Shown here: in pieces, positions 62,672 to 64,000 of the stretch
How positions within the stretch are numbered: position 1 is the first letter of the stretch
How the letters are laid out: every line of letters starts with the position of its first letter
Made by a program: the position numbers and the translations under genes
Notes under the pieces: model-generated
What the model saw: the letters and a program-made list of their open reading frames with translations, nothing else
Told to the model about the DNA's origin: nothing
Databases searched by the model: none
Source of the DNA: Myxococcales bacterium
GTDB taxonomy: Bacteria > Myxococcota > Myxococcia > Myxococcales > Anaeromyxobacteraceae
Direction of reading: 5' to 3'
Assembly (NCBI GenBank): GCA_021806645.1
Contig: JAJZQX010000018.1
Span: forward strand, 1 to 64,000
DNA length: 64,000 nt

Positions 62672-63059
62672 CGACGGGGAGGCTTGTAGCACGGGGTCCA
62701 GGTGACGAGCACCCCAGGGCATGGTGAACCATCCCCGGAGAGCGCACCGGGCGGCGCCTCGCACAAGTCGCCCGGCCGCGGCCTCCGCGAGAGGAGACCC
62801 TGAAGTTCATCCGGTCTTGTGGAGTCCCCCGGCGTGAGCGGAGGACCGCGCAAGGAGCGCTATCGGAGCCGCAATGCCAGAAAGGAGAAGGGAAGGCTAA
62901 GAACGGCAGACTTGGAGCTTGGTGTTGCAGCCGTTGCAGCAGTCGCCGTCGGTACAGTCTGACCCCGCGGGGAGGCACCCCGTTGGGTCGGTGCAAATGC
63001 CAACGTTGCACAGTTGGCCGGTCGGGCAGACGGGCTTGCTGCAGGAGCCACTGCACATA

Positions 63060-63660
63060 ATGGTTCCACCGCAGCCGCACGCCTGGCCCAAAGTACCAGG
63101 CGTGGCGACGCTGCACAGTCCGTCACACAGAATGATTCCAGACCTCCTGACATAGACGGGTGCGGACTTGTCCGCTTTTCAGCAGATCGCACGGCCCCAC
63201 GTCAGGAAGATCGATCCCTTACGGATCCGCCACCGAAAAAAGCGGACAGGTTTGGGTTCGCACCCCAACCGGGTACAGGCGCTGGGAACCAGCTACAGGC
63301 TTGCGATTCCGAGTCCTATGTCAGGAGGTCTGGATTCCGCCGCATGAGCCGCACGCCTGGCCAAAAGTGACAGGCGTGGCGACGCTGCATGATCCGTCAC
63401 ACAGAATGATTCCGCCGCATGAGCCGCACGCCTGGCCAAAAGTGACAGGCGTGGCGACGCTGCAAGATCCATCGCAAAGAACGCTCCCCCCGCATAGGCC
63501 GCACGTCTGGCCTAGATTGCCGGGAGTAGCGACGCTGCATGAGCCATCACACTGAACCTTCCCGCCGCACGAGCCGCAGGCCTGGCCGAAATTGCCGGGA
63601 GTAGCGACACTGCACAATCCATCACACAGAATGATCCCGCCGCATGAACCGCATGTTTGG
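63060..63660. repeat. 75-bp tandem repeats encoding 25-residue Cys-rich units
   Basis: About five and a half units of 75 bp, at 63637, 63562, 63487, 63412, 63337 and, beyond the inserted element, 63137 down to 63060. The two units at 63337-63411 and 63412-63486 are almost identical over their first 52 bases; others differ more. The units are in frame with the gene and are not CRISPR-like. Confidence 0.8.
63138..63333. mobile_element. MITE-like insertion with 18-bp terminal inverted repeats
   Basis: Ends are CCAGACCTCCTGACATAG (63138-63155) and its exact complement CTATGTCAGGAGGTCTGG (63316-63333). The flanks have a 3-bp duplication ATT (63135-63137 and 63334-63336). Comparison with the neighbouring 75-bp repeats shows the uninterrupted target. 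It is 196 bp and holds no transposase; inside, GTCCGCTTTT (63170-63179) and AAAAGCGGAC (63238-63247) form a second inverted repeat. It is a non-autonomous element whose partner family I cannot name. Confidence 0.85.
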
Positions 63661-64000
63661 CCTGCGATACTCGCAGAACTGGGCCCGCAGGCCACCTGCG
63701 CAGTATACAGATACGTATTGTTTCCGTCCGCTACAATCCGTTGGCTTTCTGCTGGATAGAGAGATCCATAGGCGTTGCCGGTGTTGGTGTCCTCATCGTC
63801 GGTATAGACCCATCCCTTTTTGATGGCTCTCGCAAAGTCGCTGGGGGCGAATACGCCGTATGGCTGGGATATGCTCGGAAACGTATCCATGGGCGTTGCT
63901 GAATTCCGAAACATACAGAAGAAGAGCCTCACATTATACGAGGCGTCGAGGTAGTTGGGGCTGATAAGAGATTGGTAGTCCGCAGTCCTGGTTGAGCGGG

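Follow-up and report, generated by a model that had tools for sequence, protein, structure and literature searches.

Most bacterial MITEs have been described as A+T-rich and TA-ended (PMC2229807). MITEAba12 (PMC6382973) and the MITEs reviewed in PMC2229807 are short, bounded by TIRs, flanked by a target duplication, devoid of transposase and related to an IS. The element described here shares these traits but is neither A+T-rich nor TA-ended, and it lacks the high copy number of those MITEs. It lies in a window of 64,000 nucleotides, the whole stretch of Myxococcales DNA analysed. Judged from its sequence, it is a MITE of a Transposase_29 IS family, probably pasted by a transposase acting in trans into a GANTC site, where it cuts a Cys-rich gene; we give this reading a probability of about 0.92. 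As a MITE it is ordinary, and the IS family is seemingly unnamed, as judged from NCBIfam and open papers. The features of the locus are as follows.

62897-63137, minus strand: 3' portion of the Cys-rich gene, cut off by the element; its frame continues that of the 5' portion once the element and one ATT are removed; natural stop at 62897.
63135-63137, unstranded: left ATT target duplication, from the flank sequence (target GATTC, G at 63134).
63138-63333, unstranded: MITE-like element of 196 bp, with perfect TIRs, a 3-bp target duplication and a 97% identical second full copy in the genome.
63138-63155, plus strand: 18-bp TIR, exact CCAGACCTCCTGACATAG, equivalent to the transposase-3' end of the parents, as judged from the box at position 32.
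63169-63178, plus strand: TGTCCGCTTT, a conserved subterminal box at position 32 counted from the end; 18 related ends have it at 31-34.
63180-63238, unstranded: 59-bp core, common to the copies in contigs C13 and C2, with no match in the available parents.
63239-63248, minus strand: TGTCCGCTTT, the second conserved subterminal box, at position 86 counted from the end; the transposase-5' side of the parents has it at 76-79 or 87-88.
63316-63333, minus strand: 18-bp TIR, exact CCAGACCTCCTGACATAG, equivalent to the transposase-5' end of the parents (box position 86, compare L021 and L116 at 87).
63334-63336, unstranded: right ATT target duplication, from the flank sequence (C of GATTC at 63337).
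63337-64000, minus strand: 5' part of the interrupted Cys-rich gene, whose ORF starts beyond the window at 65147 of the same contig (C25) and ends inside the element.
63408-63412, unstranded: GATTC of the adjacent 75-bp repeat unit, a natural copy of the unoccupied site (3 of 65 bp differ from the joined site).

The first-pass annotation had proposed a 196-bp element with perfect 18-bp TIRs, a duplicated ATT and no transposase, and each of these points was borne out. The two copies of CCAGACCTCCTGACATAG form an exact inverted pair, no other site in the window matches at up to 3 mismatches, and none of 100 shuffles gave two matches. The flanks read GATT before the element and ATTC after it. Only short open frames are present inside, with neither a long ORF nor a transposase. 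Being short and TIR-bounded, with a target duplication, copies at several sites and ends common to an autonomous transposon, the element has the usual marks of a MITE.

The interrupted gene is read from the minus strand and encodes 25-residue Cys-rich repeats (75-bp units). With the insert, its frame stops after 608 codons, the last few of which are read from the element. When the flanks were joined by script, without the 196 bp and one ATT, the frame was restored, as had been noted, and stayed open for 683 codons, down to the stop at 62897; 75 terminal codons are thereby severed by the insertion. Compared with the joined site, the adjacent 75-bp repeat is the same at 62 of 65 bp, and none of the three differences falls where the element inserted. 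Since this neighbouring unit is uninterrupted and matches the joined site, it serves as a natural control for the unoccupied state and shows that the element is not part of the normal coding DNA. Relatives carrying the site as normal coding DNA, which would have spoken against an insertion, were not found. The Cys-rich gene was not detected in 18 genus and family relatives, which thus supply no empty-site orthologue. Upstream of the gene, on the same strand and beyond the window, the contig encodes a 1739-aa RHS/YD-repeat-like protein (L019:5958-11177).

Copies were searched in the element's own assembly, a 4.14-Mb draft of 33 contigs. A second full copy of 197 bp (97%) is present in C13, between flanks GAAT and AATC, that is, with its own AAT duplication at a GAATC site. 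It interrupts a transposase-like ORF of another kind, judged by eye, for which no Pfam match was found. A further copy in C2 has lost its first 62 bases, and lone ends are present in C5 and C4. In C4 the end runs directly into the middle portion of a Transposase_29 gene, which has suffered further loss and is a transposase remnant; no intact transposase of the family was found in this assembly. The copies thus lie at unrelated sites (C25, C13 and, truncated, C2) and in low number: with only two full copies, the MITE does not form an amplified family in this genome. All six own-genome flanks read GANT. The truncated C2 copy overlaps the mechanical start of a 202-aa ORF and may supply its first codons (L016:9133-9806), and the lone end in C5, with a GAGT flank, cuts off what by eye resembles part of a tyrosine integrase (L017:9251-9712), without a Pfam match. 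Plasmids gave neither a transposase match nor a flank match.

It could be argued that one full-length element inserted at this site, lost its transposase afterwards and decayed to what is now seen in the window, and decay products do exist in this genome, namely the TIR joined to part of a transposase gene in C4 and the lone end in C5. However, a structure of 196 or 197 bp with the same core is found at two sites that are unrelated and have separate target duplications, so that the same internal deletion would have to have occurred twice. The C13 copy largely refutes this explanation, which we hold to be very unlikely. An assembly artefact joining unrelated sequence is the least likely explanation of all, with hardly any probability left to it; the source is a draft genome in 33 contigs and related elements often lie at contig ends, but read pairs or long reads easily span a stretch of only 196 bp, and the two full copies are not identical, each with a correct target duplication.

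The insertion was also said to seem recent. The open joined frame and the perfect ends fit this, but the divergence between the two full copies (about five substitutions and one indel, approximately 3%), the lack of an intact transposase in the assembly and the lack of an empty-site relative weaken it. A recent insertion is thus plausible though weakly supported, and the amplification is not brand new, since the two full copies differ. The element is probably immobile in its genome now, because all that the assembly retains of a transposase is a remnant.

Other copies of the ends and a full-length parent, which the first-pass annotation had proposed to look for, were both found, the ends in many other genomes besides this one. 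One parent is a 2387-bp element with identical 18-bp TIRs in a genome of the same genus (G002, locus L048). Inside the TIRs, it resembles the window element with 83% similarity over 41 bp at one end and 76% over about 98 bp at the other. The 59-bp core matched none of the available parents, and derivation of the MITE from a known parent by simply deleting the interior is thus unsupported. An exact 18-mer scan of GTDB genome contigs, with phyla taken from record titles, gave 71 contigs from about a dozen phyla, all of them MAGs; the carriers include Elusimicrobia, Planctomycetota, Verrucomicrobia, Actinobacteria, Acidobacteria, Myxococcota and Chloroflexi. Transposase sequence is present in 25 of the 71, beside the end in 24, and many of the remaining contigs stop near the end, leaving the element at a contig edge. 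Full-length members measure approximately 2.3-2.7 kb and carry one transposase gene each. A transposase search through 195 genomes from the phylum of the window found carriers in 5, a patchy spread. No match to the exact end was found in IMG/VR, and the end sequence was not found in any of the open papers searched.

Because the scan selected exact ends, the exactness of the end by which an element was found carries no evidence. The opposite, unselected end of each element has 0-3 mismatches out of 18, also beside transposases approximately 40% identical to that of L048, and the parent in G036, detected solely through its transposase, carries CCAGACCTCCTGACCTAC at either end, with two mismatches. 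The transposases that accompany this nearly invariant end share no more than 32-66% identity with that of L048. In G036, two tandem left ends (L126:18 and L126:1048) precede one right end, possibly a nested or decayed second element.

The parental transposase is a single ORF of 715-850 aa in intact cases. It matches Pfam PF21804, Transposase_29, with 245.8 bits for L048 and 254.4 bits for L073 (cut-off 27); among the open papers searched, this family name or accession was found in one unrelated paper only. The predicted architecture consists of two N-terminal HTH units followed by a Tn5-like DDE catalytic core. With an AlphaFold2 model built from 11 sequences (mean pLDDT 72), structural re-alignment placed Tn5 transposase in all top five rows (Z 13.6-14.1 over approximately 300 residues), followed by piggyBac and ISCth4 at Z about 8-10. 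Foldseek alone gave no match under E 0.001, and the Tn5 reading comes from the re-alignment. In the alignment, D365 and D441 (L048 numbering) are invariant and E544 nearly so; in L112 an in-frame deletion has removed the E region, and this transposase is presumably dead. The predicted model thus has the Tn5-like RNase-H fold and the DDE residues of IS4 members. No named IS family of NCBIfam fits, the best matches being to HTH parts and below cut-offs. The IS4 model NF033592 scored 13.9 bits for a cut-off of 115, DDE_Tnp_1 was likewise weak and below its cut-off, and in place of the Y-2-R-3-E-6-K signature the consensus is RMFERWRQENFFKYLR, with R and E but without Y or K at the set places. As modelled, the protein would work like a Tn5-type DDE transposase, and we do not file it as IS4.

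A nested inverted repeat had been noticed inside the window element, and it is indeed there: GTCCGCTTTT is read from either end towards the interior, at positions 33 and 87 of the element. It is not incidental, being a conserved internal box held at set distances in the parents. Of 70 ends, 18 have the box, TGTCCG[C/G]TTT, at position 31-34 and 17 have it at 76-79 or 87-88; the two 5'-side positions are about one helical turn apart. Where a transposase is visible, the class at 32 corresponds to the transposase-3' end and the class at 76-88 to the 5' end. Distant actinobacterial and verrucomicrobial members are without the box in this form. What is new here is that the nested repeat can be recognised, from its spacing, as an internal box conserved in most parents at about 32 bp (3') and 76-88 bp (5'). 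Its retention in elements deprived of any coding sequence suggests that it serves transposition. The end and the box could be read by the two HTH units of the N-terminal region, as we infer from the sequences; weak profile matches of the HTH region to the DNA-binding domains of TnsB, Pax and Sleeping Beauty are compatible with this.

The element folds strongly as a palindrome on both strands (z -6.3 and -5.8), as would a module kept for a host role, for example in transcription termination or RNA structure, with mobility secondary. Such folding is nevertheless expected from long TIRs alone, both full copies interrupt reading frames, Rfam gave no family at gathering score or credible E-value, and a scan of 63000-63500 for terminators and promoters returned nothing. 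There is very little probability, in our estimate, that a host role explains the element. At the transposase-5' end of L048 (7245-7345), and similarly in other parents, GCGGAC-CCAAACCT-GTCCGC-TTTT resembles a hairpin followed by a T run upstream of the transposase gene, and perhaps also guards against outside transcription. A terminator role of the window copy was dropped because its scan was empty, although the parents carry the hairpin and TTTT.

Outside the element's own genome, the four bases beyond the TIR read GANT in 57 of 68 distinct flanks, for approximately 1% expected from composition (binomial P about 1e-101). Together with the duplications, these flanks indicate a GANTC target of which ANT is duplicated. 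All five MITE-sized elements with two ends have a 3-bp duplication; of the nine full-length elements for which both flanks are available, six show no clean one. Among full-length elements, L048, L057, L077, L082 and L109 show an unclean 3-bp duplication, yet each flank is mostly GANT. Recombination between copies or MAG misassembly perhaps accounts for the unclean duplications. One Verrucomicrobia MAG (L062, L069, L070, L074, L081, L101, L106) has the same ends with GANT in none of seven flanks, and its L062 transposase is distant, 32% identical to that of L048 in the alignment. This clade seems to choose its targets differently; as it keeps the end without GANT, the end is more conserved than target choice.

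Two other elements with both ends and GATT/ATTC flanks have different interiors: L071, of 219 bp, from Elusimicrobia, and L086, of 298 bp, from Bryobacterales. In G013 and in a Baikal Myxococcales MAG there are incomplete MITE-like pieces whose core is again different. MITEs have thus arisen repeatedly in this IS family, at least two others of them in other phyla. A possible further MITE is L095, of 196 bp, with an ACA duplication and three mismatches in one end.

Taken together, the MITE retains the DNA that the transposase would need, the 18-bp TIR and the box TGTCCGCTTT at 32 and 86 bp from the ends, as spaced in the parents. A transposase supplied in trans would, most likely, excise the 196-bp element and paste it into GANTC with a 3-bp stagger, duplicating ANT, here the ATT of GATTC; in the Cys-rich gene, the insertion has severed the final 75 codons.

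GANTC is the site of CcrM/HinfI-type methylases. It is methylated by CcrM in alphaproteobacteria (PMC2229807). No CcrM-type RAMA domain was found in four carrier genomes (the element's own and three relatives); the own genome has one N6_N4 methylase. Among the papers listed on GANTC together with IS or MITE, none showed an IS targeting GANTC. A link between the target and methylation is speculation. We regard as unlikely the wider proposal of an undescribed IS family of uncultured bacteria, with its 18-bp end, phased box, two-HTH Tn5-like transposase and GANTC target, in which host adenine methylation steers or regulates insertion.

The element is moderately interesting, chiefly for its GANTC target, the phasing of its internal box and the strong conservation of its end. 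A nearly invariant end beside such diverged transposases, with a GANTC preference, is unusual and merits a biochemical test. Ends, box, target and transposase offer a testable anatomy for a transposon family of about a dozen phyla, and annotators gain in the end sequence a diagnostic tag which finds copies and explains broken gene calls.

Compared with known systems, the closest are the Transposase_29 (PF21804) IS elements, whose full-length members have the same TIR, box and GANTC flanks but encode the transposase, whereas the window element has no coding capacity. With the IS4 superfamily and Tn5 the family shares a predicted catalytic domain and its conserved D, D and E residues in L048, but scores are below cut-off and the strict YREK signature is absent. 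Tn5 duplicates 9 bp of target, versus 3 bp here. GANTC is likewise involved in the CcrM-associated intergenic repeats of Caulobacter (CIR), but in these it lies inside the repeat (PMC2229807), whereas for the window element it is the target, outside the element.
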